Source: Longimicrobiales bacterium
Lineage (GTDB): Bacteria > Gemmatimonadota > Gemmatimonadetes > Longimicrobiales > Gaopeijiaceae
Length of the DNA stretch: 64,000 nt
Direction: 5' to 3'
Assembly: GCA_958295645.1 (NCBI GenBank)
Contig: OY282361.1
Location: 1,888,501 to 1,952,500, forward strand
A program made the translations under genes and the position numbers. This document shows positions 11,139-48,663 of the stretch, in pieces. The notes under the pieces are model-generated. The model was not told the DNA's origin, searched no databases, and saw nothing but the letters and a program-made list of their open reading frames with translations. The stretch's first letter is position 1. Every line of letters begins with the position of its first letter.

Positions 11139-11355
11139 GGCGGCGGCCCGCGCGGACGGAGGAGGCGACGGGAGTCGGGGTTCGGCTCCGTGGCTGGTCG
11201 TCGTGGGCCGGTCTCGCTCCGGGCGCGGCGGACAGGCCGATTCTCGGGCTGCTGCTCCATGCCCGGCAACTTACCGAGGCTCGCGACTTGACGGAACCGC
11301 GAGATGGCACCACCCTGCAATGCGAAGGCTTCGTCAATCACAGCGCGGAGGTTGA

Positions 11356-11790: not shown

Positions 11791-11890
11791 AACCGCCAGC
11801 CGGCGGCGGGGCAGCACGGTTTCGTCCGGAGGCGGCGCACCGGTTGCGTCTTTCCGCCACGGAGCGGCTCTCGACCTAAGAAGGAGGCCC

Positions 11891-13138: not shown

Positions 13139-13248
13139 GCGTCCTTCACGCAAACGCGGCGGCGGCGGCGACGGGAGGCTCCGTAGCCCTCGTCCACCGC
13201 GTCCTCCGCACGAACGCCGCGCCGACTCGCTTCACCGGCCCTGCCGTC

Positions 13249-18970
<5,722 letters not shown>

Positions 18971-30784: not shown

Positions 30785-31543
30785 TCAGGTGGGCACGCGC
30801 AGCACGACCAGCTCGGAGTCCAGCCCGTGACGAACCACCTCCAGGCGTAGCGATGCGGCGGCCAGCGAGCGAGGTGGCACGTAGGACACGCGGAACGGGA
30901 AGAGGCCGGGCTGCTGGAGCAGGTCGTTGGGCGAGGCGGGGTGGCCGGCGCGAGCGTGAAGGGCGGCTTCGGCGAGCCAGCCGACCAGCTCTGGCGCTTG
31001 GACCGGATGCTGCTCGCCGACGGTGTACTGGCCTCGCGTTGTCGTGTCGGCCAGGACTCCCCAGTCCACGAACGACCGAAGAACGCGACGGGTGGCTCGG
31101 GCGACGGTGGAACGCTCGCCGTACTGCTCTTGGACGCGACGCCGGATCTGGGCCGCGGTCGCGACGCCCTGAAGACGGAGGAGCCTGCCGGCCTGGGTGG
31201 CGACGGCGCTCCAGAAAGGGTAGACCGCCATCGTCATGCCCCAGTGGACAGCCAAGCGGCTGGCGAGCGCCGCGTCGTCCAGAAGGCGGAGGCCGGTGTC
31301 CCGCAACGGGATCAGCCGGGACGGCGGTCCACACCATGTCCTCGTCAGGATGGTGACCGTCTTCTCGCGGTTGCTCCCGGCGGCGTTTCCTCCCACGGAC
31401 ACCTTGTCCCTGAGCATCTCCACAAGGGCGGACCGCGCATTCGCCCGGTTCTGTCCGGCCCGCGCCAAGTGCGCAGCCTCGTCCAGCCATTCAAGCCGTA
31501 CGCGCTGGCTGAACCTGACGGGGCGGGATGCGCCGTCGCTCAA
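30785..31543 (-). CDS. BREX-associated protein downstream of pglZ (brxA position)
   Basis: 252 residues if started from a TTG that overlaps the PglZ stop (TTGA); the first ATG is about 35 codons further. The product is mainly helical with a predicted winged-helix region (AQIRRRVQEQYGERSTVARATRRVLRSFVDWGVLADTT). In BREX type 3 loci the gene after pglZ is brxA (DUF1819), which is also a helical winged-helix protein of about this size; position and general features agree, but I do not see enough direct similarity to name it with certainty. Confidence 0.6.
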   Translation of the reverse strand: MSDGASRPVRFSQRVRLEWLDEAAHLARAGQNRANARSALVEMLRDKVSVGGNAAGSNREKTVTILTRTWCGPPSRLIPLRDTGLRLLDDAALASRLAVHWGMTMAVYPFWSAVATQAGRLLRLQGVATAAQIRRRVQEQYGERSTVARATRRVLRSFVDWGVLADTTTRGQYTVGEQHPVQAPELVGWLAEAALHARAGHPASPNDLLQQPGLFPFRVSYVPPRSLAAASLRLEVVRHGLDSELVVLRVPT

Positions 31544-33585
31544 GCGTCCGCGCTCCTGTCGATGCGCACCAGCGGCACGACGACCTCCTCCAGCGAGGCC
31601 CCACCGTGCCCGACGATGCGCTCGCCTTTGCGAACGAAGGCCGACCGCCCGGAAGCGAGAAGGGGCAGGTAGTCTTCGGGGAGGCCCGCAGGAGGCCACG
31701 ACCGGGCCCGCGGAAACTCGTCCGCGGCCCGTCGCCGCAGGGACGCGCTGGAGTAGACGTGGACGCGCTTGTCCCGGAGCTCGGCGACGTCTCCTGTGGA
31801 CGGGCGGCCGCATCCCGTCGCTTCGACGTTGCCGTGGTCGGAGGTGAGCCAGACCGCGAAGCCGTTCTCCAGCAGTAGGTCGAGGAGTGCGGCCAAGTAC
31901 GGCTCCCGCGCCCACTGGCGGACTTGGCCGTGCATCCCTCGGGCGCCGAGTTCCATGCCGTGCATGATCTTGTCCACCGTGTCCACGACCAGCCCGGCGA
32001 CCCGAACTCGGGGGTGGGAGATCAGGTCGGCTACGGAGTCCAGCGAGCCGTTGCCCAGCTTCTTCTCGTAGACGACGGCGTGGCCGACGAGGCCGCGGTC
32101 GGCCCAGAACTGCCGCCACAACTTCGGCTCGCGGCTCGTGGATTGGATGCTGCCGGGTGGGAAGTAGAACGGCGGCCTCCCTGCGAAGGCCGCTTGCCGA
32201 GACACTGATGTGAGCGTCGGAATCCACGCGAACACGGCGTCTTCGCGAAGGCTGTAGCCGGGTTGACGCTGGGCCAGTTCGTCCCTCGCCGCGACCCACT
32301 GGTCCATGGACAGGCCGTCCACCACTAGCAAGGCCGCCTTGTAGCCGGGGGCAGCGTCCACGTGTCGGGAGAGGAGATGCGGGACGTGATGCAACATGAC
32401 GGGCGGCACCGGCGGCAGCGTGGCCAAGCTGGCATAGCGGCGCCCCAGCCACTCGGCGAAGGCGTCGTCGACACGGCTTCGCAGCGCGGCAAGGCTCGGC
32501 TCCTCGGTCGTCTGCGCATCGTCGGTCGCCGTGGTGGCTCCACCGCTCTCCATCGCCAAGTCGAGCGCCCCGGCTTTCGCCCACGTACGCGCGAACCGCA
32601 ACCAGTCACCGTAGCGCGCGTCCCGGCTCGGTATCGCTTTGGCCGCGGCTTCGACAAGCCGATTCAGCCGTTGCGCGTCGGTGACCCCGCTCGCGGCCTG
32701 CACGCCTGGCGACATCCAAGTGCCAGCGAACGAGTCAGCGGCCTCGTGGGCAACGGGCCGCAGCAACCCTTCAAGGAACAGGTTGTCGATGTAGACGCGG
32801 ACGTCGTCGTGATCGAAGGGAAGCTCGACTGGTCCCGGATAGGCGAGGTCGCGGCCGTCGGCGTCCGGGGTGGCCTCGGTTGCGGAGGCGCTGTCGAGGA
32901 AGAGGGGCCAGCGCTCCTGAAGGAACTCGAAGAATGCGTTCCTCTCCGCCACGATCGCGTCCAGCGGCCAGTCTGCAAAGCGTCCCTCCCGGCGGAAGAT
33001 CCGGACGAGGTGCCGGATCAGTAGCGGAGGAACCGCCTGGCCGCCGTGATGAAGGCGCAGCAGAACCCGCAACATGTCCGGCGGCTCCAGCACAAGCTCC
33101 GTGGCAATCCCAAACACGTGGCGGAGTACGAAGTCCATGGTCGCCTTGTCGCCCAGCATGCTCGGGCGCACTCGTTCCATTGCCTCATGGAGAGCATCAA
33201 GGTGCGACGACTCGACGGCCGCCAAGACCGTCCGGCTGAGCGTCGGAAACAGTGCTTGAAGTCCCACCGACACCCGTCTCCCCGAGCCGGCCACGTCGTA
33301 GGGCAGGTTTTCGGCTCCCAACTCGTCCAGCCGCGACACGACCACGACGTCGACCGGCTTGTCGTCGTCCCAGTAGGCTCGGACCCTCGACTCGTACGCG
33401 TATCGAAACGCCACGGGTTCTTCGAAGACCAGGACCTCGAAGCACCGCCGCCGGAGTTCCGCTAGGACGACTTCATCGAGGATCAGGCCGTCGGGGTCGG
33501 CGACGACCGTCAGCCGCGCGGCTCCTGGAGGAAACTCTCGCAGGATGCGGTGCCGCCAGCCTTCAGTCGATTGGGGCAAGGCCAC
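31540..33585 (-). CDS. pglZ: BREX-3 alkaline-phosphatase-fold protein PglZ
   Basis: 681 residues from a GTG at 33585. PglZ is the core alkaline-phosphatase-superfamily member of BREX phage-exclusion systems. The C-terminal phosphatase domain is recognisable by ALLVVDGLSMDQW (metal-binding Asp), the VDKIMHG segment and LTSDHGNVEATG (Asp-His metal ligands). The N-terminal 350 residues are the helical part of type 3 PglZ proteins. The gene is separated from the rest of the BREX set by the inserted CBASS and PLD modules and therefore needs its own promoter in the 33.6-34.1 kb gap. It is followed by a gene overlapping by four bases. Confidence 0.85.
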   Translation of the reverse strand: MALPQSTEGWRHRILREFPPGAARLTVVADPDGLILDEVVLAELRRRCFEVLVFEEPVAFRYAYESRVRAYWDDDKPVDVVVVSRLDELGAENLPYDVAGSGRRVSVGLQALFPTLSRTVLAAVESSHLDALHEAMERVRPSMLGDKATMDFVLRHVFGIATELVLEPPDMLRVLLRLHHGGQAVPPLLIRHLVRIFRREGRFADWPLDAIVAERNAFFEFLQERWPLFLDSASATEATPDADGRDLAYPGPVELPFDHDDVRVYIDNLFLEGLLRPVAHEAADSFAGTWMSPGVQAASGVTDAQRLNRLVEAAAKAIPSRDARYGDWLRFARTWAKAGALDLAMESGGATTATDDAQTTEEPSLAALRSRVDDAFAEWLGRRYASLATLPPVPPVMLHHVPHLLSRHVDAAPGYKAALLVVDGLSMDQWVAARDELAQRQPGYSLREDAVFAWIPTLTSVSRQAAFAGRPPFYFPPGSIQSTSREPKLWRQFWADRGLVGHAVVYEKKLGNGSLDSVADLISHPRVRVAGLVVDTVDKIMHGMELGARGMHGQVRQWAREPYLAALLDLLLENGFAVWLTSDHGNVEATGCGRPSTGDVAELRDKRVHVYSSASLRRRAADEFPRARSWPPAGLPEDYLPLLASGRSAFVRKGERIVGHGGASLEEVVVPLVRIDRSADA

Positions 33586-33589
33586 TTGA

Positions 33590-33673
33590 CTAACTCTTCA
33601 GCGGACTCCCGGCGGCCTTGTGCGGCTTTCGTCCGCGAGGCCGGGGCTGCTCCACTGCCGTGAGTAAGATCAC
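33590..33673 (-). CDS. Possible 27-residue leader ORF before pglZ
   Basis: A GTG at 33673 lies at good distance from a very strong ribosome binding site (GAAAGGAGGT, 33680-33689) and opens a 28-codon frame reading MILLTAVEQPRPRGRKPHKA and ending in TAG four bases before the pglZ start. By contrast the pglZ GTG itself has no clear site. The peptide could serve translational coupling of pglZ. It is also possible that this is the decayed end of a lost upstream gene. Confidence 0.4.
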   Translation of the reverse strand: MILLTAVEQPRPRGRKPHKAAGSPLKS

Positions 33674-33689
33674 TGCTCCACCTCCTTTC

Positions 33690-34122
33690 GCTCTAACGCT
33701 AACCACTTCGGCATACGCTGTCGCGCGGGCACGCCTCTGGCCAAGACCAGCCCCGGACTCAGGGGGTTGTCGGCACTCCGCCGGAGGAGCGGCAACGTCT
33801 TTCTGAACCGGCGCCTTCGCTCCCGCGGAGATCGGCAAAGGCCGCCGGGGCCGCCGCGAAGGCCGCGGACGGGGTGGGCCTCGCGCTAACCCACCCGCAC
33901 CGACGGCGGCGATCTCACGAGCCGGGCAAGCTCGACGACCTCGGAAGAGGGCACGTCTATTGCGGGTACGATAGACGGCCGAGCAAGGGCTGTAGCACGG
34001 CAACGTAGAATCGGCTATAGTATGGATGCTTCACCGTCCGCCATTGCTCGACCCGGCGCAGGAGGGCGGCGAGTGCGGGCTCACCTGTATCGGAAGTCCG
34101 GGCAACCGCTGGGGCAAGGCAA
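33690..34122. other. Divergent gap between pglZ and the PLD nuclease gene
   Basis: No gene supported. The frames that are open here are Arg/Pro-rich and look like chance readings. The region must contain promoters for the leftward pglZ unit and the rightward PLD/methyltransferase unit. Its position between two BREX parts makes it a junction of the inserted modules. Confidence 0.4.
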
Positions 34123-35145
34123 TTGGCGAAGGTGATCCAAGCAACTTGGGACGACTTTGACAGAGTTGCCGGCGCAAGCCGTGAGCGATTCTTGGTGTGC
34201 ACTCCTTACTACAGTGCGCGGGGACTTGCCCGCCTGTCCGGTGTGCTGCCGTCGGGCGTCGGCCTGAAGTTCATGAGCCGCATCAGTCCGTCCGAATGGG
34301 CTAGCGGCGTCTCCAGCCCCGATGAACTGGCGAAGCAACTCTTGTCGTTGCGGGAACGGGGTCACACCGTCCAATTGCTAGTCCATCAACGACTGCATGC
34401 GAAGGCGTACCTTGCCGACCACTCCACCGGGCTTGTAGGCTCCGCCAATCTGTCGTCCGCTGGCTTCGACAGGCACTTTGAACTAATGCTGGAGCTTACG
34501 GAAGAGGAGACCCTGACCGCAACCAAGATCATCGACGACGAAGCCGACCGGAGCGGAAGGCCGCTGACACTAGATTGTCTCGACGAATGGGCTTGCGAGT
34601 ACCTTCCGAAGATTGACGAGCACAAGGAAACAGTCTCGGATTTGGAGGATCTTGCCGAAGTGCAGCGGCAGTTGGACCTCCTGCTGGGGTACGGACAGGG
34701 TGGCACCGGGTCGGACCAGTTTGCCGACATCGACGACTTCGGCAGCTGGCTGGCCGCCAACTCGTCGCTTGCCGGCGCGAAGGTCTTGCATAGTCGCTAT
34801 CAGAACATCCGCCGTCAAAACCTGACAGGACACTTTCGGCAAAGCTACTGCGCGGCATGTCTGTTCCTCGAGGAATACCGCGGCCACGTCGATCCCTTGG
34901 TTGAGGCGCTAAACCAGATGGGCCCCGACGACATCTACCAGCCGAGTCAAACAGTCCTCGACGACTGGGTTCGCCACCTCAACGACCACGCCACAACCCA
35001 AACCGATCTCTACGACTACGCCGTGTTGCGCGGGATACTGCCGCCCAATCTGGGCGGAACAAGAATCGGCGGCGGTGGCGGGAGCAGCACGCTGAAGCGG
35101 ATGCTTCCCCTGGCAGCTCGATTCATGGCCGCGGAGGGTAGGTAG
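34123..35145 (+). CDS. Phospholipase D-like (HKD) nuclease
   Basis: 340 residues from a TTG at 34123; a GTG at 34132 is an alternative start. One complete HKD motif is present: HAKAYLADHSTGLVGSAN (His-x-Lys-x4-Asp, then Gly-Ser-x-Asn), so the active enzyme would be a dimer, as in BfiI and DrmC-type nucleases. The N-terminal FLVCTPYYSARGLARLSGVLP is also typical of PLDc_2 domains. The C-terminal 170 residues are unrecognised and may bind DNA. The gene is only three bases from the PglXI-like methyltransferase gene and clearly forms a pair with it. A restriction-type role, cutting DNA that lacks the partner's modification, is an inference. Confidence 0.8.
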   Translation: MAKVIQATWDDFDRVAGASRERFLVCTPYYSARGLARLSGVLPSGVGLKFMSRISPSEWASGVSSPDELAKQLLSLRERGHTVQLLVHQRLHAKAYLADHSTGLVGSANLSSAGFDRHFELMLELTEEETLTATKIIDDEADRSGRPLTLDCLDEWACEYLPKIDEHKETVSDLEDLAEVQRQLDLLLGYGQGGTGSDQFADIDDFGSWLAANSSLAGAKVLHSRYQNIRRQNLTGHFRQSYCAACLFLEEYRGHVDPLVEALNQMGPDDIYQPSQTVLDDWVRHLNDHATTQTDLYDYAVLRGILPPNLGGTRIGGGGGSSTLKRMLPLAARFMAAEGR

Positions 35146-35148
35146 TCT

Positions 35149-37794
35149 GTGGCTACCACGCTGTTTGACGGGGTGGGTGAGGGCAAGCACGCCCAAACAG
35201 CCTCCCGTCGCGAGTCCGATTCGCATCGGCGACAACTAGTGGCCGCGCTTTCTCAGCTGTCGAGGACCGAGGGTGCGCCAGTTGCAAGTGCCGACGAGGT
35301 ATTGGATGTATCCATGCCTCCCTACTACACCGCCTGCCCCAACCCCTTTGTCAACGAGACAGCGGTCCCGACAAGACTCCCAGCGGGAATGCCTCCCGGG
35401 GCACTGCTGGACGAACCCCCCGACGTAGCCGCGTTCGCCGCGGACGTTTCCGTGGGCAAGAACGATCCACTTTACTTTGCCCACTACTACAGCACAAAGG
35501 TGCCCCCAGGCGCCATCGTTCCGTACATCCTGCACTTTACAAGGCCTGGCGATGTCGTGCTGGACGCCTTCTGCGGAACCGGCATGACCGGCGTAGCGGC
35601 TCAGCTGTGCGCGAAGGAGGGGGATGGAGCGCGGCGGGCCGTACTGAGCGACCTAAGCCCCGGCGCGTCTTTCATCGCCGCTGGCATGAACGCTGTCGGC
35701 GCACTAGCGGAGCACCTTGACGAGATCGAGAAGATCGTCGCCGCGGTGGCTCGCGACCACGCGGATCTGTTGCAGACGTCCCACGTCGGCTGGCCTAGGG
35801 GTACGACCGAGGTCGGCGAACGGGTCAACATGGACGGTGGTCCTAACCGGGGTCGGCCTAGCGGTCACATACAATATGTCGTCTGGTCCGACGTGTTTCT
35901 GTGTTCTGCCTGCGGTTGCAGAGTTGTGTACTGGGACTTGGTGTTTCGAGGCCCCAAGCGGAAGACGCCGAAAGAGGCACCCTGTCCAGAATGCGGGTCG
36001 CTACAATCGATTCGCACGTTGCACCGCTCTTGGAAGACTCGGTTTGACGCCGAGCTTGCAGAACCCGTGCGCCAAGCCGAGCAGCAACCAGTTCTGATCA
36101 ACTACGCCGTAGGCACGCGCCGCTTTGAGAAGACGCCTGACGATGCCGACCTCGCGCTCATCGCCCGCTTGGATCGGAGTGCGACTCGTCCAGCTCCGCC
36201 CATTGTGGCCATGCCCGACGGCTTCAACACCCAGCAACCTAGGCAGTCTCATGGGTTCACTCATCTGCACCACTTCTTCACGAGGCGCAACCTCACACTG
36301 TTGGCGGACTTTTGGGTTCGCGTGCGCGGGTTGAGAAACCGCGAGGCCCGCTTTCTCGGATTGTTCGTGCTCACGGGCGCGCTCCAGCGCGTCTGCCGTC
36401 TGAACCGGTATATGCCAAACCACGACCGCCATGTCGGCCCGCTGTCCGGGACGCTGTATGTCGCGCCGCTTACCGCCGAGATTCCGGCCACCAACTACCT
36501 GCAGAGCCGGATCGCCGACCTGCGCAGATGTAGTGGCGGCCCACGGAGCAACGGCGTCGTTGTCGGCACGCAGAGCGCAACCGACCTCCGAAACGTGCCT
36601 GACGCTGCCATTGACTACGTCTTCACCGACCCGCCGTTTGGCGGCAACCTCAACTACTCCGAACTGAACACCCTCGTCGAGGGCTGGATCGGCATCCACA
36701 CCGACCCCCGGCGCGAAGCTGTCGTCAACCAGGTTCGGGGCAAGAGCTTGGCGGACTACCGACGTCTAATGCTGATGGCGTTTCGCGAGTATTTCAGGGT
36801 GCTCAAGCCCGGCCGGTGGATCACCGTGGAGTTTCACAACTCGCTGAATGCGGTGTGGATCGCCATCCAGGAAGCACTATCCGAAGCCGGCTTCGTGGTT
36901 GCCGACGTGCGCGTGCTGGACAAGAAGAAGGGGACAACCAAGCAACTCAGCTACGGCTCCACGGTCAAACAGGATCTGGCCATCTCGGCGTACAAGCCGC
37001 GGGACGAGGTTGAAGAACAAGCTCGTCTGCGGGCCAACCACGATGGCAACGTATGGGATTTCGTGCGGATGCACTTGGCAAAGATTCCGTCTCCCCAGAT
37101 TCGCAACGGTACGGTGGAGGCGGTTGCGGAGCGCCACAACTACCTGTTGTTCGACCGCATGGTCGCTTTCTATGTGCAACGCGGCGTGCTGGTGCCGATC
37201 TCGGCCGCCGCGTTCTACCGAGGACTCGCCCAACGCTTTCCCGAGCGGCACGGACAGTACTTTCTTCCCGACCAAGCGGCGGAGTACGACCGGAGAGCCG
37301 CAGACCGGCCGCCCCGTCCTGCTCAGACGGAGTTATTCGTCAGAGACGAGGAGTCGGCGATCCAATGGCTCCGGCAGGCTCTCTCTAGCCAGCCGCAGTC
37401 ATTCCAGGAACTTCACCCCCGATTCTTACGGGAGACCGCGGGTTGGAGCAAGCACGAGCGCGCGATGGAGCTGTCCCACCTGCTTGAGCAGAATTTCCTC
37501 GCCGACGAGGCCGAGCGCTGGCACGTCCCCGATCGCAACAAGGAGGCCGACTTGATGCGGTTGCGGGAGCGCGCCCTCCTCCGCGAGTTCGCCGAATACA
37601 GGAAGGCGGAGGAGCGACAGTTTAAGGTGTTCCGAATCGAAGCGGTCCGGGCCGGGTTCCGCCAAGCGTGGCAGGAGAAGGACTATGCCGCCATCGTCGC
37701 CATGGCCGGAAGGATCCCCGACAGCGTGCTCCAGGAGGACCCCAAGCTGCTGATGTGGTTTGATCAGGCGTTGGTGCGGGTTGGAGGTGGGTAG
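35149..37794 (+). CDS. PglXI-like adenine-specific DNA methyltransferase (second copy, plus strand)
   Basis: 881 residues from a GTG. Motif I is VVLDAFCGTGMTGVAA and motif IV is TDPPFGG, so N6-adenine or N4-cytosine methylation is expected. A zinc-ribbon insert carries CSACGC and CPECGS. It is a clear paralogue of the BREX PglXI encoded at 40872-43670: shared blocks include PPYYTACPNPF, DVSVGK-DPLY, the HxTKVP-AIVP segment and LKPGRW-TV-FHNS-NAVW-AIQE. The two lie in opposite orientation on either side of the CBASS genes. It pairs with the PLD nuclease gene rather than with BREX genes. It is convergent with the E2-like gene (10 bases between). Confidence 0.85.
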   Translation: MATTLFDGVGEGKHAQTASRRESDSHRRQLVAALSQLSRTEGAPVASADEVLDVSMPPYYTACPNPFVNETAVPTRLPAGMPPGALLDEPPDVAAFAADVSVGKNDPLYFAHYYSTKVPPGAIVPYILHFTRPGDVVLDAFCGTGMTGVAAQLCAKEGDGARRAVLSDLSPGASFIAAGMNAVGALAEHLDEIEKIVAAVARDHADLLQTSHVGWPRGTTEVGERVNMDGGPNRGRPSGHIQYVVWSDVFLCSACGCRVVYWDLVFRGPKRKTPKEAPCPECGSLQSIRTLHRSWKTRFDAELAEPVRQAEQQPVLINYAVGTRRFEKTPDDADLALIARLDRSATRPAPPIVAMPDGFNTQQPRQSHGFTHLHHFFTRRNLTLLADFWVRVRGLRNREARFLGLFVLTGALQRVCRLNRYMPNHDRHVGPLSGTLYVAPLTAEIPATNYLQSRIADLRRCSGGPRSNGVVVGTQSATDLRNVPDAAIDYVFTDPPFGGNLNYSELNTLVEGWIGIHTDPRREAVVNQVRGKSLADYRRLMLMAFREYFRVLKPGRWITVEFHNSLNAVWIAIQEALSEAGFVVADVRVLDKKKGTTKQLSYGSTVKQDLAISAYKPRDEVEEQARLRANHDGNVWDFVRMHLAKIPSPQIRNGTVEAVAERHNYLLFDRMVAFYVQRGVLVPISAAAFYRGLAQRFPERHGQYFLPDQAAEYDRRAADRPPRPAQTELFVRDEESAIQWLRQALSSQPQSFQELHPRFLRETAGWSKHERAMELSHLLEQNFLADEAERWHVPDRNKEADLMRLRERALLREFAEYRKAEERQFKVFRIEAVRAGFRQAWQEKDYAAIVAMAGRIPDSVLQEDPKLLMWFDQALVRVGGG

Positions 37795-37804
37795 TGGTCA
37801 AGCA

Positions 37805-38506
37805 CTACTCTGGCTCCGGAGTATCGACAGCTGGTAGACGCTTTCGCTTTGATGTTGGACCGCATTGATGAGCTGCACGTAGCCGCTCGAGGTCGTTCCC
37901 TACATGTCGGCGGCGGCTGTTAGTCTCCCTGCGGAGGCGTGAGAGCAGTTGCCTGTGGCATTGGCGCAGGGATCGACCACTACCACATGGGCACTCGATA
38001 GAGCCCTTAGGATGATTCGGCTTTGCGATTAGCGTCACGAAAGCCATGATCGTCCGGCAGTCCGCACGAAACCCTAGCATCTCTCTATATGCGTCCACGA
38101 TGCCACTAACGCCATGTGACCGCTCACCGTCCAGCGGCCATGATCCGTGTGCTTCGTAATATGCTTGACCTACGAAGTATGGGTGCACCAACACCCGAAG
38201 AAAATCAGCCAGAGAAGAGCCAGGAGGCCAATGCTTGCCGTACTCAGATTCGACGCAAAGACACGCTTTCCCACCAGAGCACACATGCCGATCCTCTTCC
38301 CAAGCGATTTCCTCTCGTTGGCAGTGCAACACAGGGACGTCGTCTGGATAGTTTGTGGAGAATTCCAAGTTCACGGTGTATCCGATACCATCTATGACTT
38401 CCATCACGCCTGTAACTTGGCCACCCGTCTCGTCGGTCGACAGTATGAGTCCGGGAAATTCTTCCGCCAGCTTGGCGCGTTCCTCAATCATCAGTTTGTA
38501 CTTCAT
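37805..38506 (-). CDS. CBASS E2-like protein with C-terminal SEC-C zinc motif
   Basis: 233 residues after a good ribosome binding site (AGGGGGATAG). Residues 1-150 resemble the E2/UBC-fold protein of short type II CBASS: LEFSTNYPDDVPVLHC, the cysteine loop GGKACLCVE, then WPPGSSLADFLRVLVHPYFVGQAYYE and GSWPLDGERSHG. In such systems the E2 forms a thioester with the C-terminus of the CD-NTase and conjugates it to targets, which primes second-messenger synthesis; no E1 or deubiquitinase domain is present here. From about residue 180 a SEC-C motif follows (CPCGSGRSLRQCH), with a basic tail. A SEC-C tail would add a metal-dependent binding module. Last gene of the three-gene CBASS unit. Confidence 0.8.
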   Translation of the reverse strand: MKYKLMIEERAKLAEEFPGLILSTDETGGQVTGVMEVIDGIGYTVNLEFSTNYPDDVPVLHCQREEIAWEEDRHVCSGGKACLCVESEYGKHWPPGSSLADFLRVLVHPYFVGQAYYEAHGSWPLDGERSHGVSGIVDAYREMLGFRADCRTIMAFVTLIAKPNHPKGSIECPCGSGRSLRQCHRQLLSRLRRETNSRRRHVGNDLERLRAAHQCGPTSKRKRLPAVDTPEPE

Positions 38507-38582
38507 AATCTATCCCCCTAGAATTCCCCAAAGCTTGTCGCCCACCGCGCCGTGCTACCAGTGCTGCCGCGAACGTGTTGCC

Positions 38583-39602
38583 CTATCGCAACCTAGAAGA
38601 TGGTGCGGAGTAGGTCTGTGCAACCCATGGCTTCGGCTGAGTGGACCCGAGAGCCGCCACCGCCTTGGCCGCCTTCTCTTTCTCGTCCTGTTCAGCCTCC
38701 TTGATGGCCGAGTCAAAATAATTGGTACACAAGACCTTCTTCCATTTCTTGAGAGCCATCGACCGACTGCAATTGGGCAGGTCGAGCTTGTTCAAATCCT
38801 CGACTGCCGTGGTCAGAACGTCGCGAAACTTGGCAACCTTTGGGTCGTTAGCGTGTTTGGTCAGGTATTCGCCGTCTACTAAAGGGTGCTTGACCACCAA
38901 ACTCCACACCAGTCGCGTGTGGATCGCCTCGATCGTCCGACGCAGGTCGCGGTCGATCCTCCCGGAATCAACTGGGTAGCATTCATGGGCCAAGACGGAA
39001 AGCACCAATCCGCTTGGAAGCGAATACGACGGGCGGTTCTTGCACAAACTCTTCACCAGGCGAACGAGTCGACGCAAACTAGGTTGCGTCGCGCAGCACT
39101 CGGCGAACCAGTCGTTGACACCTTCCGGATTCGACACCTTCCAATCTTGGCTGGCAAGCTCGATCTCTTCCCAGTCTTCTTCTCCCTCACAGCGATAGAC
39201 CGGCATGTCGACCTGGACCCCGTCGCTGTAGAAAATGCGAACGCAGTTCAACTTGACCAGCGGTGGGTTCTTGAACGAACCGTCGTCCACGGCATCGCGA
39301 ACCACCTTCCGTGCGTCGAGCGCAGTCTTGTCCGCGCCTTTCGCTCCCTTGAGAGACTCGCGGGTGAAGACTACGCCCTCGTCGAGATCGTAGGCATTGT
39401 TTGCCTCTTGGATGATCGTGCCCATGGCAAAGGAGCCTTGAGTAACGAACCTAGTCGGCGCAGGCTGATGATTGGCTTCCAGCCCATCTTCGACTCTACG
39501 ACGGTTGCTTGCCCGCTTCTTCTTCAGGTCCGCCGTTTGCGCGTCCGTGAGTTTGACCCTGACATCGTGGTAGTCTCGAATGTCCTTGCTACAGTCGATC
39601 AT
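38583..39602 (-). CDS. CBASS CD-NTase (cGAS/DncV-like nucleotidyltransferase)
   Basis: 339 residues. Nucleotidyltransferase active site is intact: Gly56-Ser57 in TQGSFAMGT, Asp72 and Asp74 in YDLDEG, and a third Asp132 in VQVDMPVY. Further helices (WFAECCATQPSLRRLVRLVKSL) match the DncV-like clade that makes cyclic dinucleotides, often 3'3'-cGAMP. On phage infection it would produce the signal that activates the patatin effector encoded just upstream. The start overlaps the effector gene by 14 bases. The C-terminus (SAPSSRLR) is flexible, as needed for conjugation by the E2 protein. The exact product nucleotide cannot be read from sequence. Confidence 0.9.
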   Translation of the reverse strand: MIDCSKDIRDYHDVRVKLTDAQTADLKKKRASNRRRVEDGLEANHQPAPTRFVTQGSFAMGTIIQEANNAYDLDEGVVFTRESLKGAKGADKTALDARKVVRDAVDDGSFKNPPLVKLNCVRIFYSDGVQVDMPVYRCEGEEDWEEIELASQDWKVSNPEGVNDWFAECCATQPSLRRLVRLVKSLCKNRPSYSLPSGLVLSVLAHECYPVDSGRIDRDLRRTIEAIHTRLVWSLVVKHPLVDGEYLTKHANDPKVAKFRDVLTTAVEDLNKLDLPNCSRSMALKKWKKVLCTNYFDSAIKEAEQDEKEKAAKAVAALGSTQPKPWVAQTYSAPSSRLR

Positions 39603-40734
39603 GTTGACCTCTCGTGGTATCGTGGTTGTTGATCACCGGCATTCCTTCGAAGATCTGCCGGAGGACTTTCCCTTTGGGATTGTTGTCAGTCTGGGTCCAT
39701 CTGTACGTCTCGTTTCCGTCTACGCGGCCGAGCTTAGCCATAGTGCCACGAGCCTTGTCTGATGCCGAATCAAGCTGTAACTGCTTCACCTGTTCTCCCG
39801 ATGGCGTCGTTTCTTCACAGCGAAGTGCGGTTACTTGTCTTCCCATATTGCTGAGTGAGGTAGCGAGTAGGGCGCCTGCGTACTTGGCAGCACTCGCCTG
39901 GCTGTTCATCCCCAAATGCAGGAACCGCAGACCATCTACCCAGTAGGGGAGTCCAACATTCAGTTTATTCGGCGAAACAAACCCCGGTGGTGGTGCACAG
40001 GTACCAACTGATAACAACTGGATTGCTTGCTCGGGTCGTGCCATAGAAATCGCCTCCAACAGGCCAACAAGCATCGGGTTGTTAGCCCAGATCCCACCAT
40101 CCACATACTCAAGTTCATCAGGTTTCGACTTCGGAGATGCAATGGGAAAATAGACTGGCGCTGCACTTGTCGCCATGCACACGTCAACCATGGCCAAGTC
40201 ATTATCGCGGTCTTTGCCAGGAAGGTGTGGCGTCTTGAAGATTCGTGGCTTGTTATTGACAAGAGTCGTTGCGGTAATGCACAATGCGATTTTGCGTCGT
40301 TTATGGACCTCCACCAGAGTTTCACGTCTCAGTAGAGAGCTCAGTGCCTCTCGCAGTTCCTGAGGGCAAGCACTTGGTCTGAAAAGACGACCCAAGTACC
40401 AGCAACGCTTGCGAAACATCCCTGCGGAAGGAAGTGGTCGCGGAAAGATTGTCGGCCCACGGTCCTGAAAGAATCTGCGGAGGCTCTGCAGAGAAATGCC
40501 TGCCGCGATGCAAGCCGCAAGAATTCCACCCGTACTAGTCCCCGCAATGAGATCAAATCCTTTCCCAATATCAAGCGCAAGCGACTTGTCGGGGTCGTCT
40601 TCTCGCTCGCGGAGGAAGCGACGCTCAAGAGTATGAAGAACGGACGCTGTATAAAGCCCGCGCATCCCGCCTCCATCTAGCGTGAGAACGGTGAAAGGTT
40701 TGGAGGCCGAGGAACTTCCTGTCGTCGCTTTCAT
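39589..40734 (-). CDS. capV: CBASS effector, patatin-like phospholipase (CapV)
   Basis: 381 residues from the ATG at 40734 (an ATG at 40752 is possible). Patatin motifs: oxyanion loop LDGGGMRGLY, nucleophile Ser67 in AGTSTGG, and the Asp of the dyad in YVDGGIWANNP. In type II CBASS the cyclic dinucleotide made by the adjacent CD-NTase activates this lipase, which degrades the inner membrane and kills the infected cell. First gene of a three-gene operon (effector, CD-NTase, E2). It lies 137 bases downstream of the BREX pglXI stop, on the same strand, so read-through from BREX is possible. Less G+C-rich than the BREX genes. Confidence 0.9.
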   Translation of the reverse strand: MKATTGSSSASKPFTVLTLDGGGMRGLYTASVLHTLERRFLREREDDPDKSLALDIGKGFDLIAGTSTGGILAACIAAGISLQSLRRFFQDRGPTIFPRPLPSAGMFRKRCWYLGRLFRPSACPQELREALSSLLRRETLVEVHKRRKIALCITATTLVNNKPRIFKTPHLPGKDRDNDLAMVDVCMATSAAPVYFPIASPKSKPDELEYVDGGIWANNPMLVGLLEAISMARPEQAIQLLSVGTCAPPPGFVSPNKLNVGLPYWVDGLRFLHLGMNSQASAAKYAGALLATSLSNMGRQVTALRCEETTPSGEQVKQLQLDSASDKARGTMAKLGRVDGNETYRWTQTDNNPKGKVLRQIFEGMPVINNHDTTRGQHDRL

Positions 40735-40871
40735 GGACGTAGAGCTTACCATACTTGTTCGCTTCCCCGTCAAGGGAAACCCTAAGGGTGACGTAGCTGT
40801 AATCGTGGCTAAGTCGGAGGTAGAAGTCAAGGAGGCGAGAGTGCCCCCGACGCGCCGTGGCCCTCGGAGGC

Positions 40872-43670
40872 CTACTCCGCCGCCTCGCTTCGTGTTTTCG
40901 CCTGGTCGTACCACATGAGGAGCTGCAGGTTCTCGCGCAGAACCTTCTCGGGAATCTTCGTTGCGATCTGGAGGATCGTGCTGTAGTCGTTCCGTCCCCA
41001 AGCCCACCGGAAGCCCGCACGAACGGCCTCAAGGCGGAACTTGGCGAGTCGGCGCTGCGACGGCTGTCGGTAGGTCTCAAACTCTCGTAGCAGCGCACGC
41101 TCCCGGAGCTTCTCTAGGTCGGTGGCCTTGTTGGCGTCCGCGACGTACCAGCGATCCAGGGCGAGCTCTCGCAGGTCGAGAGCATCCTTGGACAGGTTCC
41201 GGGCCGTCTTGTAGTTGCTGGACAGGTAGCCGTGAATCTGGCCGGGCACCTCTCCCTCACCGTCGTAGCAGAGGAAGTTCTGCTCCAGAAGCGTGGTGAG
41301 CTCCAGCATCTGCTCGTGCTTCTGCCAGCCGCCCAGCTCGCGCACGAAGTCGGGGTGGATCGCCTGGAACGTCCGTGGGCGGGCCTTGAGCTGCAACCGC
41401 AGCCACTCGATGGCGGACTTCTCGTCGATCACGAGGAGGGCCAGCTGCTCGACCCCTCGCACGGTCAGGCGCTTGCGGTCGTGCGCCACGACCTGCTCTG
41501 GAAGGAAGTACATGCTGTTTCGCACCGGAAACCGCTGCTTCAGTCCCTCGTAGAACTCGGCGGCCGAAAGGGGAATCGCCACACCACGCTGGACATGGAA
41601 CGCCACCATGCGGTCGAAGAGGAGGTAGTCCAACCGCTCGGCGACGATCTCCGCCACGCCCTTCTTGGATACGAACACCGGCAGGTTCCTGAGATGGTCG
41701 CGAACGAATGCCCACGCGCCCTCTTCGCTCCCGGCTTCCAATTCGAAACGGGTCTCTAGCTCGCGCGTCGGCTTGTAGGCCGAGATCACTAGGTCCTGCT
41801 TCACCGCGCCGCTGGCGACGGCTTGGTTGTAGGACCCCACCCTCTTGTCCAACGTGCGCACATCGGCCACGACGAAACCGGCGGAGGACAGCCCCTCTTG
41901 GATGGCGTTCCACACGGCGTTCCGTGAGTTGTGGAAGACCACGGTCATCCATCGCCCGGGCTTGAGCACCCTGGCGTACTCGGAAAAGCACCGGCGCATC
42001 AGGTACTGGTACTGGTTCAGTTTCTTGGCCTGTGCGTTGCTGACGATTGCTTCGGGGGCGCGGCTTGTGAACACTCGGTGGAACGCTTCGTTGACGAAGT
42101 TCAACTCCGAGTACGCCAAGCTGTCCCCAAAGGGCGGGTCGGTGAAGATGTAGTCGATGGACTCGGACAGGGCAGGAACCACGCCGCAATCCCCAGTCGT
42201 GATCATGGAGGAGCTTCGACATGAAGGCATCGGCGTAAACGTCTTGGGCAATCGAACGGCACGATTGGCCAAATTGTAGCGCAGGGAGCACTCCGATACT
42301 TGGGAACTGACGTAGTAGACGCCGGACATTGGGCGGTTTACTTGAGAGCCACCGGGCCGGCCATGCTGAATCGGTTGGTATCGATTCAAGATGGACATGC
42401 CGAGAATCGCCTGTTCGGCCAAGAACACAAGCATGTTACGCAACCTCGGGTGCTCATGTCGGCGAACGCCGCGCCACAACGCGGTCAGAGCCTGTGCGGA
42501 CCGACTGGGAAACAAGTGATGAACATATTGGAACGAGGCCGTTCCAGCCCTCCATTTATCGCCCCACTTCGTCACGTCGTCGGAGGCATGCATCATTCGA
42601 TCCATCGGCATGTCGCGGTGAACGTTAATGGCCGCGATTCGATTGAGAAGCCGTAGGTCCTCCTCGTCCGGCTCTTTCTCGTACCTGCCCGCACTGGCCA
42701 GATAATCGATCAGAACCGGCACCCGCTTTGCTTCGTCGATGGTTCGACCGAGCGCCTCGTCCCAGTGCGCGGACGACTTCCGCACCAGCCGTCTCTTCGT
42801 CAACGCCGCCCCGCACTCCGGACACGGGAACTCCTTCTTGACCTTCTTGGTGCGAGCATCCACAGCCTCCTTCCCAAACACCACTTCCCCCGCGCACTCC
42901 GGGCACGAGAACACCTCGCTCCACACCGTATAGTTGATCCGGCCCTTCGTCTTGCCGTCCGTGTGGAGGGTCTCGTACATCCAGCCGACTTCCTTCTCCA
43001 CGTCGTCCAACAGCTTCCGGGCCGCCGCGGCGAACTCTTCCACGTCGAACGGGATGTTGTAGTTGGCTGCGATGAACGTGGCGGCGGGCGACAGGTCGCC
43101 GAGGACAGCCCGCCTAGCTCCCCATGCGGGTAGGTCGCGTCCCTCCTTCTTCCATTCGTCCTCCAACTTCCGCCGATACTCTTCCGGCGCCGTGCCGCAC
43201 CACTGGGCCGCCACTCCGGTCATGCCGGATCCGCAGAAGCCGTCCAGCACGATGTCGCCGGGCATGGTGTAATGAAGGATCGACGGCACGATCGCCAAGT
43301 GGGGCACCTTGGTGTGGTAGCCGTGGGCCCGGTAGAGAGGGTCGGTCTTTCCGACGCTCACGTCCACGGCGAAGGGCTCCCGGTGGTAGCCGTCGTCGGG
43401 ATCGTAGAGCTTGCCGTAGTGCTCGACGAAATCGGCCAGGAAGGGGTTGGGGCAGGCCGTGTAGTAGGGCGGGTCCGACATGCGCAGGATGTCTTCGTCT
43501 TCGCCCTTGGGGAAGTCGGGCCGCTTGCGCAGTTCCGGCAGCTTCGCCCGCAACCGAGCCAGGAAGTGCTCGCGGCGGGCGTCGTCCGACTCGAAGGTCA
43601 TTCCCAGGCACTCGACGGGCTCGGCGTCCGGCGCCTCCTTCGCCTCGGTCAGCCCAAGGGAATCTGTCAC
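40872..43670 (-). CDS. BREX-3 adenine-specific DNA methyltransferase PglXI
   Basis: 932 residues, start overlapping the preceding gene (ATGA). Motif I DIVLDGFCGSGMTGVAA, motif IV TDPPFGDS, and a zinc ribbon with CPECAGE and CPECGAA. In BREX type 3 this enzyme marks host DNA so that BREX acts only on phage DNA. The C-terminal 300 residues carry the recurring LLFDRMVAFHVQRGV and ALLREFETY segments also present in the paralogue at 35149. It is followed leftwards by the CBASS effector gene, not by the helicase gene expected in type 3 loci. Confidence 0.9.
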   Translation of the reverse strand: MTDSLGLTEAKEAPDAEPVECLGMTFESDDARREHFLARLRAKLPELRKRPDFPKGEDEDILRMSDPPYYTACPNPFLADFVEHYGKLYDPDDGYHREPFAVDVSVGKTDPLYRAHGYHTKVPHLAIVPSILHYTMPGDIVLDGFCGSGMTGVAAQWCGTAPEEYRRKLEDEWKKEGRDLPAWGARRAVLGDLSPAATFIAANYNIPFDVEEFAAAARKLLDDVEKEVGWMYETLHTDGKTKGRINYTVWSEVFSCPECAGEVVFGKEAVDARTKKVKKEFPCPECGAALTKRRLVRKSSAHWDEALGRTIDEAKRVPVLIDYLASAGRYEKEPDEEDLRLLNRIAAINVHRDMPMDRMMHASDDVTKWGDKWRAGTASFQYVHHLFPSRSAQALTALWRGVRRHEHPRLRNMLVFLAEQAILGMSILNRYQPIQHGRPGGSQVNRPMSGVYYVSSQVSECSLRYNLANRAVRLPKTFTPMPSCRSSSMITTGDCGVVPALSESIDYIFTDPPFGDSLAYSELNFVNEAFHRVFTSRAPEAIVSNAQAKKLNQYQYLMRRCFSEYARVLKPGRWMTVVFHNSRNAVWNAIQEGLSSAGFVVADVRTLDKRVGSYNQAVASGAVKQDLVISAYKPTRELETRFELEAGSEEGAWAFVRDHLRNLPVFVSKKGVAEIVAERLDYLLFDRMVAFHVQRGVAIPLSAAEFYEGLKQRFPVRNSMYFLPEQVVAHDRKRLTVRGVEQLALLVIDEKSAIEWLRLQLKARPRTFQAIHPDFVRELGGWQKHEQMLELTTLLEQNFLCYDGEGEVPGQIHGYLSSNYKTARNLSKDALDLRELALDRWYVADANKATDLEKLRERALLREFETYRQPSQRRLAKFRLEAVRAGFRWAWGRNDYSTILQIATKIPEKVLRENLQLLMWYDQAKTRSEAAE

Positions 43671-44271
43671 TCCTTCAATTCCCGCAAGTAGGCGAGGCCG
43701 GCTTCGGTCACCACGTAGGCTTGGTCCGGGTGGTGGGGTTCGTCCGGGCGGGTCATGCGGACGAGTCCAGCGCGTACCAGCGGATCAAGGTGCTTGCGGC
43801 GGAAGAAGGCGCGGTGGTTGAGGCCCGTCTGTTCCATCAGATCGGCCCGGGTGCGGGGCAGGTTGCAGAGTCTAATGATGAGTTTCTGGTGATCTGTCAA
43901 GTTGGTCACTGCCGGAGTGACCAACCCCTTGGCGCCTGGCGCGGTGCGGCCGACTCGAGCGGCAGAAGCCTCTGGCTCGGCCGGGAATGCCTCCGCTCGC
44001 AGGTGCTTCGCAAGCGCAGGACCGCCGCCCGCGTGGGCACCCGGTTCTCGCCGTGGCCGGCCAGCAATCCCATTTGGCCCAGGAAGTCCACGCCGGACAG
44101 ACCGGCGTACGATCGGTTCCCCGGCTTGGCCTCGTAGACGCCTCGGTACCAGCGAATGCTCTCCTCGTTGAACGCCGTGGCCAGTTCGCACTCGACGGGC
44201 TGCGCTTCCTTGAACTCCACGTCCCGCCACTCGTGCGCTTGAAGCAGGTCGACCAACTCGTCCTGGGTCAT
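43667..44271 (-). pseudogene. AlbA_2/winged-helix accessory gene of the BREX operon, degraded
   Basis: The start ([20 protein letters not shown]) is a normal AlbA_2 beginning and overlaps the brxC stop by four bases (ATGA). The end, in another frame, is a winged-helix domain (LTDHQKLIIRLCNLPRTRADL to AYVVTEAGLAYLRELKE) whose stop overlaps the pglXI start by four bases. Only about 200 codons remain of a usual 450-500; the core of the AlbA domain after EFKEAQ and the ATPase part are missing, and a frameshift near 44040 separates the two halves. The preserved overlaps at both ends show that an intact gene once stood here in the operon. A short N-terminal product of 121 residues could still be made. 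Confidence 0.75.
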
Positions 44272-47200
44272 TTGTTCTCCACCACGATCCTGACCTTGGC
44301 GGGGTCCCTGCCGATGGTCTGATCCTCCAAGTAGGCACCCAGCCGCTTCACCATTTCAGCGGGGGTCGCGGGTGCGCCGCCGGGTGCCAGGGCATCGCAC
44401 AGGTCGGCCGACTTGACGGGCACCTTCTCAAGCCCAGAGAGCGCCTTTGCAATCGCGTTGACCAAGTCTCGCTCGGGGTCCTCCGGGAGCCGTCGGCTTG
44501 CCACAAACCGATCCACATGGGCTCGGGCCGACGGCTCCAGCAACTTCAGGCTCTCTTGAGCGGCCGGGTCCGCCAAGTTGTCCAGCAGCGAGCTGGTCCA
44601 ATGCGCCAACAGCTGATCCGCTTCGCGGTCCAGGGCGTCCAACACGGCATCCACCGGGGGGCCAACGTCGTCCGCGCCCAGGCGAAAGCGGCAATGTTCG
44701 CATGTCGGCGCGGCCTGCAGTTCGCGTTCGGTGAGCACGGCGCAGGCGGTCAGTTCGTCGAGCCGGGCCTGGTACTCGGCCAGCTGCCGCCCGGGCAGGA
44801 TGTCGATTGCGCACAGCTTGGCCAGCCCCTTGAGCCGGTCGCTTCTCCGCAGACGCTGCCTGCGCCGCTCGTCGGCTACGCCCAGCCGACCCCTCGCGTG
44901 GGCGCCCAGGTACATGCGCACGTACTCGGCCTTCAGGCGGGCCAACTCCTGCGCCGCGTTACGCCGAAGCTCGTCGGAGCGGCGCGTCTCCGGGTCGGCG
45001 ATGCGATCCAGCAGGTCTTGCCGGGCTTCCCGAACCCGCTCTGCCCACGCGTGCCCGGGTGGCAGGCCCGCCGTGGCCGCCACCAAGTAGGACGCCAGCG
45101 GCTCCAAATGCGACCGCAACGCGTTCAGCGCCTCGACCTCCGCTAGGCTGGCCACGCCCGCGACCTGGGACTTCACTGCCTCGGCGTCGTGGCGAAAGCC
45201 CTTCAGCTTGCCCGGCGACGTGTACACCCGGAGCGACTCCAGGAATGTCTTCGCGCCGTCCATGTCCCGCTGCAACCGCTCCGCCTCCTCGTCCGCCAGC
45301 AGGCGAGCGCCCCAGAACGGAAAGCGCTCCTGCGCCAGATGCACGCCCTTGGCCAGCCCCTTCACGACATCTTCCAGCCTTTCCTGGAACCGTTGCACCG
45401 CCGCCTGCTGGCCATGCGTCACCTGCCGGGCGGTCCCCGGCGGCAGACCGACCAGCTCGAAGAGCGCCGTCAGCGCGGGCAAGTTCCACTCCTTCGGAGC
45501 CTTGTAGTGCTTGAAGTCGGCCAACTCCTTGACGGAGCACGCTGCCAGCTTGGAAAGGCTCACGGCATCGAACACGGCGCCCGGCACGGCCAGCACCACA
45601 TGGCCGGAGTGCACCAGCGCCGCCAGCACGACCACCACCCACTCCGGCTCCAGCCGCTGGCCGCTGGGGTCCATGTACTCCACGCCGCGATCCTCTTCGA
45701 CAAGCTCGACGCGGTTGACGACCTGCCCGTGTTCTTTCTGCTTCAGCACGTCAAGCACGTGGCGGGCGTAGGGCGAGTCGGACGGGTCGATGCGGTCGCC
45801 GTCCAAGAGCCCCAGCGCGTCCAGCACGGCGGTGGCCTGCGCGGTGGGGCGCTTGTCGGCTATCACCTGCACGGCGTCCCGCGCCGCCTGCTCGCGGCTG
45901 CTGTCCGTGACCAGCTTGGAGAAACGCGGATAATCGGGCGCCTGGTCCTCGAAGTGAGCGGACAGACAGAGGCCTGCCACGACGTTCACGAGTCCGCGAA
46001 AATCGACGACTTGGTCGGGGCGAAGGCCCGCGACCTCTCGCACGGACTTGTCCTTGCTCCAGTCCGCAAGCCTCTTGGTGCGGCCCCGGTACGTGCCCTG
46101 AAAGGCGTCGACCATGTGTCCGCGCAACCAGTCCACGATGTCGCGCAGGAAGCCGTCCGCCTTGGCTCGGTAGGTGTCCCTGGCGTAGCCGGAAGAGGTC
46201 GTGGCCAAGTCCACGGCGGCGGCGTAGCTCTTCAGCGCTTGGTCGAACTCCTGGTCGCGACGGACCAGTCGCACGAACATCTCGTCGGGCTTGTTCTCGT
46301 CCTTGAACCTGGGCGGCTCGAAGGGTTGCAGAAAGTACAGGTAGAAGTCGCGGGGCGGCACGGCGGTGGACCGCTCGTTGGGCGCGCCGAAGAACAAGTA
46401 GCCGCGCCTCGACGCCTTCCGGTCGGGCCACACCAGCTCGTGCTCCCATATCTGGTAGCCGGTCACGTACGTATGATCCGTGCACTCCATGATCCGGCGC
46501 AGTGCGTCGTAGTAGTACCGATCCAGCTTCGATTCGTCCAACGTCTCCGCGCGAGCCTCGATGAGGGCGTCGAAGTCGTCGGTCTTCTTCAGGTCCAGGT
46601 AGTACTGGCCGTTGTCCGGGTTGGACGAGACGAACTGGCCGCTCACAGTCTTGTATATCTCGCGAAGAACGGCTTCGACCTGGGTCAAGAGGTCGTCCGC
46701 CGGGTCGCCGCCCAGCTCCTCGATGCCGGGCTGATGCAAGCAGAGGGCGTCCCGAATCTCCTTCGCCGTGGCGCCCATCTGCGAGTTGACGTCGCCCGTG
46801 GTCAGCCTGTGGACGGACAGCGCGTGAATGATCTGCAGCGCCATCGGCATGTACTGCGGACGCGTGAACGCCTGCTTGACCCGAGCCTCCAGCACTTCGC
46901 TGCACTGAACGACCTCGCGAATGTCCGGCACGGCCCGAAACGCCGGATTCTCCCGCAACGTTCTCCAGTAGCTGTCGTACGTGACCAGACCGGGCTGATC
47001 CCTGGGCACTTCCTCGTCCAGCATCTCCTGCATGGCCAGCGACAGGGTTCGCAGCACCTCGCGCTTCTCCGCCAGGGCCACTTGGTCGAACGTCTCGATG
47101 TAGGCGGGATGCACGGGGAACAGCCGGACGTACTCGTCCATGCCTTCGTTCATGCGCTCGTAGAGCTTGGAGAAGCGCCCCAGGTGCTCGCGTATCCGGG

Positions 47201-48002
47201 CCTGCTGATCCGCCGTCTTCCTGAGCAGGCGTTCGGCGACGACGAACTTCACGTCGCTCCTCGCGATGAGAACCTGTTCGAAGCGATCCTTGACCCGCCG
47301 GAGGGCTTGGGACGCGAACGCCAGCGTCGGGCTGTCGAAGATCGCTTCCTGAACGCCGGCCAGGAAACGGAACCGAAGACCGCAGCAGACTTCGCCCACC
47401 TCGCGCAGGAAGTTCAGGTCGTAGACCATCTCCTGATCCTTCCTGGACCGCAGGTAGTCCAACAGCTCGTCCACCACCAGCAACAGGCCGTGGTCGGGGA
47501 ACGAGCCGTGAAACGCCGTCATCATCTCCTCGAAGCAGCGCTTGTTGTTGTGCACCTCGTCGGCCGGAGGGAACGCGTACTCGACTCCCATGGCGCTCAA
47601 GTGATCCTCCAGGGTGGACGCCACGATGTCCCGCAACGTCATCTGGGTGCCGCCGATCTCCACTCGGATCACCTTGAAGCGACCGGCGATCTTTGCGGCG
47701 GCCTCTGCCACTCCATCGTGCGTCACGTGCGCAGCCAGCCCGCCGTGCTCCGCGATTCCGGCCAGCACCGACATCAAGTGCGACTTCCCGGTGCCGTAGT
47801 TGCCCACGACGAAGAGGCCCCTGTTGTCGATGGGCTGGTCGTATTGAAGCTGAGGGATCACCAACTTCGACAGCTTCTCCGCCATGGCCTCCGAGACCAC
47901 GTAGGACTCGACGAGCCGACGGGCTTGGTCCTCCTCGGCCGACCTTCGGAGTTGAACGACGGACTCGATCGGGTCGAACCGGATCAGGTCGCGGTACTTC
48001 AT
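44268..48002 (-). CDS. brxC: BREX-3 ATPase BrxC (DUF6079/PglY-like)
   Basis: 1244 residues, starting [20 protein letters not shown]. Walker A is [16 protein letters not shown] near residue 65 and Walker B is [13 protein letters not shown] near 190. The remaining sequence alternates ATPase, helical and coiled-coil parts, with a late CEHCRF cysteine pair. BrxC is the large AAA+ ATPase common to BREX systems and is needed for phage exclusion and methylation. It follows brxF by 27 bases and is coupled to the degraded AlbA-like gene. Confidence 0.9.
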
Positions 48003-48029: not shown

Positions 48030-48578
48030 TCAGGTGGCGCGAGAGGCTGGATCGACGACGCTCGCGTTCATGTGGGTCCCGCCGGCCTGCACGACCTGCA
48101 AGCCTGCGGCGGGATAACGGCGGTGCTCCGGGTGGCCCGGGACAGCGTAGGTCAAATGTCCTTCAGCGACTGCGCCGGGCCAAGCGGCCACGACGACCCT
48201 GTGGCGCGACAGGCCCTGGAGCAAGACCAGCGGATCCTGCTCAAGCCCAGGATCGAATACGATCTCGATGTTGTCCAGCAAGACCATGGCGACGGGCTCG
48301 GCAACGGCCGGGTTCTCCTCGTCCGTCTCGGCTTCCCTCACGATGTCGTCCAGCAACTCGGCCAGACGAATCGCCCTTTGGCGTTCCGTCAGCTCCAGCA
48401 TCCGGCGAGCGAGCTCCAGGCTCGCGTTGACTAGCGGAGCCCCGGTGCGATCCCGAATCGTCCGCAACGCCGTGGTCTTGCCCGACCCGGGCGGGCCTAC
48501 GACGAGCACCAGCCGATGGTAGAGGGAGGCGGCTTGGCGAGCCCGTTCGAGGACTTGGCCAGCGAGAGAATCTGCCAT
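48030..48578 (-). CDS. brxF: BREX-3 small P-loop protein BrxF
   Basis: 182 residues from the ATG at 48578; the frame continues upstream but that part is Arg/Gly-rich. Walker A VLVVGPPGSGKTTALR, Walker B AMVLLDNIEIVF, and a helical segment ELTERQRAIRLAELLDDIV. BrxF is the small ATPase that opens type 3 BREX operons, which fixes the subtype. First gene of the leftward operon; the promoter should lie in the 85 bases before the DoxX gene end, where ACAGTATACC gives the only AT-rich patch. Confidence 0.85.
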   Translation of the reverse strand: MADSLAGQVLERARQAASLYHRLVLVVGPPGSGKTTALRTIRDRTGAPLVNASLELARRMLELTERQRAIRLAELLDDIVREAETDEENPAVAEPVAMVLLDNIEIVFDPGLEQDPLVLLQGLSRHRVVVAAWPGAVAEGHLTYAVPGHPEHRRYPAAGLQVVQAGGTHMNASVVDPASRAT

Positions 48579-48663
48579 GCCTACAGTATACCGGCTCCCC
48601 GCACGTTGCGTGCCGACGTCGCAACCCCGGAGGGAGGGCCCGCGACGGCCCGGGCGCGCCCCC

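Follow-up and report, generated by a model that had tools for sequence, protein, structure and literature searches.

We identified a pair of genes, encoding a PLD/HKD-family protein and a second BrxXI/PglXI-family DNA methyltransferase (MT2), inside the type 3 BREX locus of a Longimicrobiales bacterium. The reading we prefer, to which we give about even credence, is that the two genes form a small and mobile module that resembles a restriction-modification system, has a methylation specificity of its own and is carried as cargo between pglXI and pglZ. Positions below refer to the window (the whole stretch of DNA that was analysed, 64,000 nucleotides of contig OY282361.1) unless another contig is named, and the features are listed in Table 1.

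Table 1. Features of the type 3 BREX locus and its cargo segment
Feature	Coordinates	Strand	Evidence
brxA-like gene, BREX-3 core (approximate bounds)	30785..31543	-	similarity to R. mucosa gene
pglZ, BREX-3 core	31540..33585	-	NCBIfam BREX_PglZ_3 1e-220
Cargo segment without DNA homology to the G160 BREX-3 locus	33565..40873	.	blastn blocks
Divergent intergenic region between pglZ and PLD gene, 537 bp, room for the pair's own promoter	33586..34122	.	
PLD/HKD-family protein, 340 aa	34123..35145	+	Pfam PLDc_2 E=1.1e-9, alignments, models
MT2, full-length BrxXI/PglXI-family DNA methyltransferase, 881 aa	35149..37794	+	PADLOC PglXI, alignment, trees
CBASS E2-like protein, adjoins the pair	37805..38506	-	PADLOC E2 7e-39
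CBASS oligonucleotide cyclase	38583..39602	-	PADLOC Cyclase 4e-105; Pfam DncV-like
CBASS patatin phospholipase effector	39589..41007	-	Pfam Patatin 2.6e-28
pglXI (BrxXI), BREX-3 core	40872..43670	-	PADLOC PglXI 1300 bits
brxC, BREX-3 core	44268..48002	-	PADLOC BrxC 1785 bits
brxF, BREX-3 core (ORF bounds, true start internal)	48030..48791	-	NCBIfam BREX_3_BrxF 3e-48

The gene pair and its host locus

The sequence-only reading had described two genes three bases apart on the strand opposite to BREX, a PLD nuclease and a BREX-type methyltransferase without a helicase, and both parts of this description were borne out. The PLD gene ends with a TAG codon at 35143-35145 and the MT2 gene begins with a GTG codon at 35149, leaving 3 bp between the two open reading frames. 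Both lie on the + strand, opposite to the surrounding core genes of type 3 BREX (brxF, brxC, pglXI, pglZ and a BrxA-like ORF). The two proteins match Pfam PLDc_2 and PADLOC PglXI, far beyond chance, and the genes on either side encode PglZ and the CBASS E2-like protein. Both frames are fully open, with coding-type GC3 (0.73 and 0.76). Upstream of the PLD gene, a scan of the intergenic region shared with the divergent pglZ found no consensus sigma-70 promoter, and the only inverted repeat around the pair was a 21-mer, 81% complementary, that we judged to be chance.

The type 3 gene set given in the text of PMC12839542 comprises brxF, brxC, BrxXI, BrxHII, PglZ and brxA. The brxA-like gene was recognised by its similarity (31%, E = 3e-23, at 30797-31381) to the gene after pglZ in the BREX-3 plasmid of R. 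mucosa; it had no Pfam match. The genome search for BrxHII gave just remote helicase matches elsewhere and no ortholog. Because the same text gives BrxHII in 77% of type 3 loci (PMC12839542), its absence here is not disqualifying for BREX type 3. The possibility that the pair is a degraded BrxHII, which the sequence-only reading had weighed, was ruled out, as the PLD protein is unrelated to a SNF2 helicase.

Three CBASS genes, encoding a patatin, a cyclase and the E2-like protein, lie between pglXI and the pair. The true start of the patatin gene is probably inside its ORF; the Pfam match begins at residue 108.

Other genes of the same neighbourhood are recorded here as separate observations. 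A PHP-SMC protein of the TrlF/Ppl type (27915-30647, - strand; NCBIfam TrlF_fam_ATP, 503 bits, above the cut-off) is encoded between the brxA-like gene and the Schlafen genes. Because it is missing at the corresponding place in G160, a relative from the same family, it is another insertion into this BREX locus. A Schlafen-like gene at 26885-27918 (- strand) is split into two ORFs and, compared with its intact counterpart in G160 (417 aa; contig L018, 72-1325), lacks about 220 bp at the break. In the gap between brxC and pglXI, a short ORF (43906-44271, - strand) matches part of a Schlafen-like gene at the same place in the R. mucosa BREX-3 plasmid and is probably a remnant of such a gene.

The pair occupies a recurrent cargo position

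Comparison with G160 supports the view of the pair as cargo. The BREX-3 core of this relative is 83-89% identical at the DNA level (blastn), and the pair is missing from it. DNA identity ends at 33,564, close to where pglZ starts, and returns at 40,874, where pglXI ends, so that the borders of the cargo are sharp. Here the slot holds CBASS and the pair; in G160 it holds two genes matching models of reverse-transcriptase defence (DRT). Other BREX-3 loci carry SIR2 and HerA between pglXI and BrxHII (G140), or IetAS (G972) or a PDC-S19 gene (G964) after pglXI, and a BREX-3 locus on a viral contig has an ATPase matching HEC-02 after pglXI. Given this variety of defence cargo at pglXI, the pair is in a recurrent cargo position, and slots of this kind hold modules known as separate defence systems. 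We also observed, in the post-pglXI slot of another contig (L110, 6024-8561, - strand), a Schlafen-like protein that at its C-terminal end is similar to the C-terminal part of PglXI.

MT2 is a complete but divergent BrxXI protein

The PADLOC PglXI model matched MT2 with 992 bits (E = 8e-299) over most of the protein length, and the alignment with PglXI of the local BREX spans the whole length, with an internal gap of 34 residues in MT2. The catalytic motifs are intact (motif I, DAFCGTG, at 139; motif IV, DPPF, at 494), and a four-cysteine zinc finger in the insert (C252, C255, C279 and C282) corresponds to C256, C259, C283 and C286 of PglXI.

Over the aligned residues MT2 and PglXI are 45% identical. 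Identity is 62% and 53% in the catalytic parts and 52% in the C-terminal parts, and falls to 32% and 27% in the target-recognition insert. Between PglXI and its G160 copy, the second half of the insert is 52% identical, compared with 79-96% elsewhere; part of the insert is the fastest changing region, which fits a specificity region. On the sequence side, the strong divergence of the MT2 insert agrees with the second specificity that the earlier reading had envisaged, and MT2 may have a target site different from that of PglXI.

The N-terminus of MT2 also departs from its relatives. An N-terminal signature, GFPxGxDExIL..SDPP, which we derived here from 19 sequences and which is not a published definition, is broadly kept in these 19 other BREX-3 BrxXI copies, where the segment GFPxGxDExIL precedes SDPPYYTACPNP. 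In MT2 alone the signature is lost, and the corresponding position reads EGAPVASADEVLDVSMPP. The mean residual over the signature was -23 for MT2, against -14 to +7 for the other 19. This loss hints at a release of MT2 from BREX, although one sequence is no proof of it.

In phylogenetic trees the branch leading to MT2 is long and its placement varies, near copies from phage contigs in one tree and beside G972 in the other. In both trees MT2 falls outside the local clade of G140, G160 and PglXI, and with its long branch this rules out a recent duplicate of pglXI. Nearly all other full-length BrxXI genes that we found adjoin brxC, and nearly all sit in BREX-3 loci. Separately, a full-length BrxXI-type methyltransferase is encoded in a viral contig (L031, 7890-10520, + strand), adjacent to a type I-like methylase. 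The 7.9 kb upstream of it gave no match to brxC, and it is possibly an orphan phage copy.

The PLD protein and its relatives

The Pfam PLDc_2 match of the PLD protein is above the family cut-off. The protein has a single HKD motif (H92-x-K94-x4-D99, followed by GSxN with N109), from which we infer nuclease activity, in an N-terminal PLD domain that is joined to a C-terminal domain of about 190 aa ending in a conserved GG...GGGG...RM.PL.ARF. The C-terminal domain is probably helical: models of modest confidence (mean pLDDT 65.6 and 68.9) predict it to be all-helical, and the catalytic part was modelled with low confidence. Structure comparison of the model and of its C-terminal part gave no match to solved structures.

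Three other contexts contained relatives of the PLD protein, with about 30-33% identity along almost the entire length. In a contig from the MAG 'bacterium isolate CSMAG_2321' (L021), the PLD gene is followed by a type II N6/N4 methyltransferase gene, whose likely start falls within the last part of the PLD gene, and the two form a two-gene unit. No other defence gene was recognised on this 6.8-kb contig, the rest of which encodes a NosL-like protein and further genes that family searches did not identify and whose sequences have no sign of a defence function. In four contigs (L006, L008, L009 and L026) the PLD gene comes after type III Mod and Res, and a YaaC-like gene follows it in those contigs that extend far enough. 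These cassettes share 99.6-99.8% DNA identity in MAGs of different families and phyla, through either recent transfer or mis-binning, and we therefore counted them as one observation. Because Res already has a nuclease domain, the PLD protein looks accessory in this context. The third context is a BREX-1 locus (L007) with the order BrxA, BrxC, a PglX C-terminal half, PLD, a 172-aa gene and a second PglX C-terminal half; the PglX N-terminal half stands further on. In this locus (7371-18703) we also noted that the two C-terminal halves are 54% identical and share a 300-nt stretch with 87% identical DNA, possibly a specificity-switching arrangement.

Including the window, the PLD family, which is rare, thus has four independent contexts, each next to genes for DNA modification, and its C-terminal domain is conserved throughout. 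Tentatively, and with more doubt than confidence, we suggest that the family may be a portable restriction subunit that docks onto BrxXI, PglX, type III Mod-Res or a type II methyltransferase and takes its specificity from the neighbouring methyltransferase.

The sequence-only reading had proposed a search for the pair in other genomes. The exact pair came up only here, whereas the search did find the PLD family beside other modification genes. With genome collections sampled by taxon, the exact pair was absent from 395 Gemmatimonadota genomes, from 121 genomes of the same family (which overlap with the 395), from 350 genomes of the phylum of the L026 MAG (labelled Chloroflexota) and from 291 genomes of the phylum of the CSMAG_2321 MAG. 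It was likewise absent from plasmids, phages and viral contigs, and from two GTDB pattern scans, which are sensitive to relatives through short peptide patterns only. The exact pair is a singleton among everything searched.

Comparison with known systems

The type II enzymes BfiI and NgoFVII resemble the pair in having an N-terminal PLD nuclease domain with a single HKD motif and an adjacent methyltransferase gene with which they are encoded, and they are of about the same size as the PLD protein. BfiI has a C-terminal B3-like DNA-binding domain; in contrast, the C-terminal part of the PLD protein is predicted to be helical, and its partner is of the BrxXI family. The NgoFVII Pfam model scored 20.3 bits against the PLD protein, under the cut-off of 23.8. 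The PLD domain of BfiI has been described (PMC4267653).

The three-gene ATP-dependent restriction-modification systems CglI and NgoAVII also combine a PLD nuclease subunit with a methyltransferase gene, together with a helicase/ATPase subunit and a B3 domain, and their methyltransferase is of the C5 type (PMC4267653). The pair has no adjacent helicase subunit and no sign of B3, and its methyltransferase is BrxXI-type. We rejected membership because the neighbours are PglZ and the CBASS E2-like gene and no SF2 helicase subunit adjoins the pair.

Type 2 BREX-related (DUF499) systems share with the pair an HKD nuclease and a BrxXI-related methyltransferase. However, as set out in the text of PMC12839542, their HKD domain is part of a helicase fusion that acts together with DUF499 and DUF3780. 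The PLD protein here stands alone, beside pglZ and CBASS, with no DUF499 or DUF3780 seen, and this assignment was also rejected. On HKD proteins of BREX systems, the same source mentions in its main text BrxL fusions and helicase fusions. DrmC of DISARM is likewise a PLD protein next to a methyltransferase-based defence system, but the NCBIfam DrmC match reached 29.5 bits over about 35 residues against a cut-off of 133, and with no DISARM genes recognised alongside we rejected this identity. The locus itself resembles BREX type 3 in its flanking core genes and in the full-length BrxXI architecture of MT2. It differs from the usual form in lacking BrxHII and in having another BrxXI gene, which is on the opposite strand and coupled to a PLD gene.

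Competing explanations for the pair

If the pair is a restriction-modification-like module, MT2 would write an N6-adenine mark on host DNA at a site other than that of the BREX PglXI, and the PLD protein, as an HKD nuclease, would cleave DNA without this mark. The PLD protein would more likely be recruited or licensed by the methyltransferase than read a site of its own, since its C-terminal domain is conserved across unrelated methyltransferase partners. Methylation by MT2, its partnership with the PLD protein and their independence from BREX are what we infer from the genes themselves: their spacing, strand and upstream region, the sharp cargo borders in a slot that elsewhere holds DRT, SIR2-HerA or IetAS, the intact motifs of both proteins, the divergent insert and eroded signature of MT2, the two-gene unit of L021, and the recurrence of the PLD family, following type III Mod-Res in one case and flanked by PglX halves in another. 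Against this module stand the singleton status of the pair, the regular association of BrxXI with brxC, the accessory look of the PLD protein in the type III context, its low-confidence catalytic model without a structural match, and the negative promoter scan. The strongest counter comes from type 1 BREX of E. coli, in which the methyltransferase PglX alone gives no DNA methylation and BrxB, BrxC and PglZ are needed (PMC6326788).

The same E. coli result favours the main rival, a BREX-3 accessory, which we consider a serious but rather improbable explanation. MT2 would then be a second specificity subunit that uses BrxC, BrxF, BrxA and PglZ for a second site, and the PLD protein would be an auxiliary nuclease, perhaps for the missing BrxHII. 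The BrxXI architecture of MT2 is complete, with the C-terminal part retained, nearly all of the full-length BrxXI genes that we found are in BREX-3 loci, the PLD gene of the BREX-1 locus is also beside an extra PglX half, and auxiliary nucleases embedded in BREX loci are described as common in the text of PMC12839542. However, the pair is on the opposite strand with its own upstream region, MT2 has lost the N-terminal BREX-3 signature, and L021 has a PLD-methyltransferase pair without BREX. Because G160 has neither BrxHII nor the pair, the pair is not needed as a BrxHII replacement.

It is unlikely that the PLD protein is a modification- or structure-dependent nuclease, type IV-like or abortive, with MT2 only protecting the host or regulating it. 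The presence of the family beside systems with very different methyltransferases is consistent with such a role, as is its conserved C-terminal domain, unlike a site-reading domain; the tight coupling to the methyltransferase gene, with overlap in L021, instead favours partnership. Least probable, and quite improbable, is that the pair is left over from a second BREX-3 system in decay, with MT2 as an orphan methyltransferase next to which an unrelated nuclease gene has inserted. This would suit the singleton status and the long branch, internal gap and changed N-terminus of MT2 but not the open frames, the full set of catalytic motifs, the 3-bp spacing and the coding-type codon composition.

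Implications

The slot after pglXI is a place to seek further defence genes. If the restriction-modification-like reading is true, a BrxXI copy working outside its system with one nuclease would offer a minimal setting in which to ask what the other BREX components do. The PLD family beside four unrelated modification machines would show one nuclease reused across restriction types.
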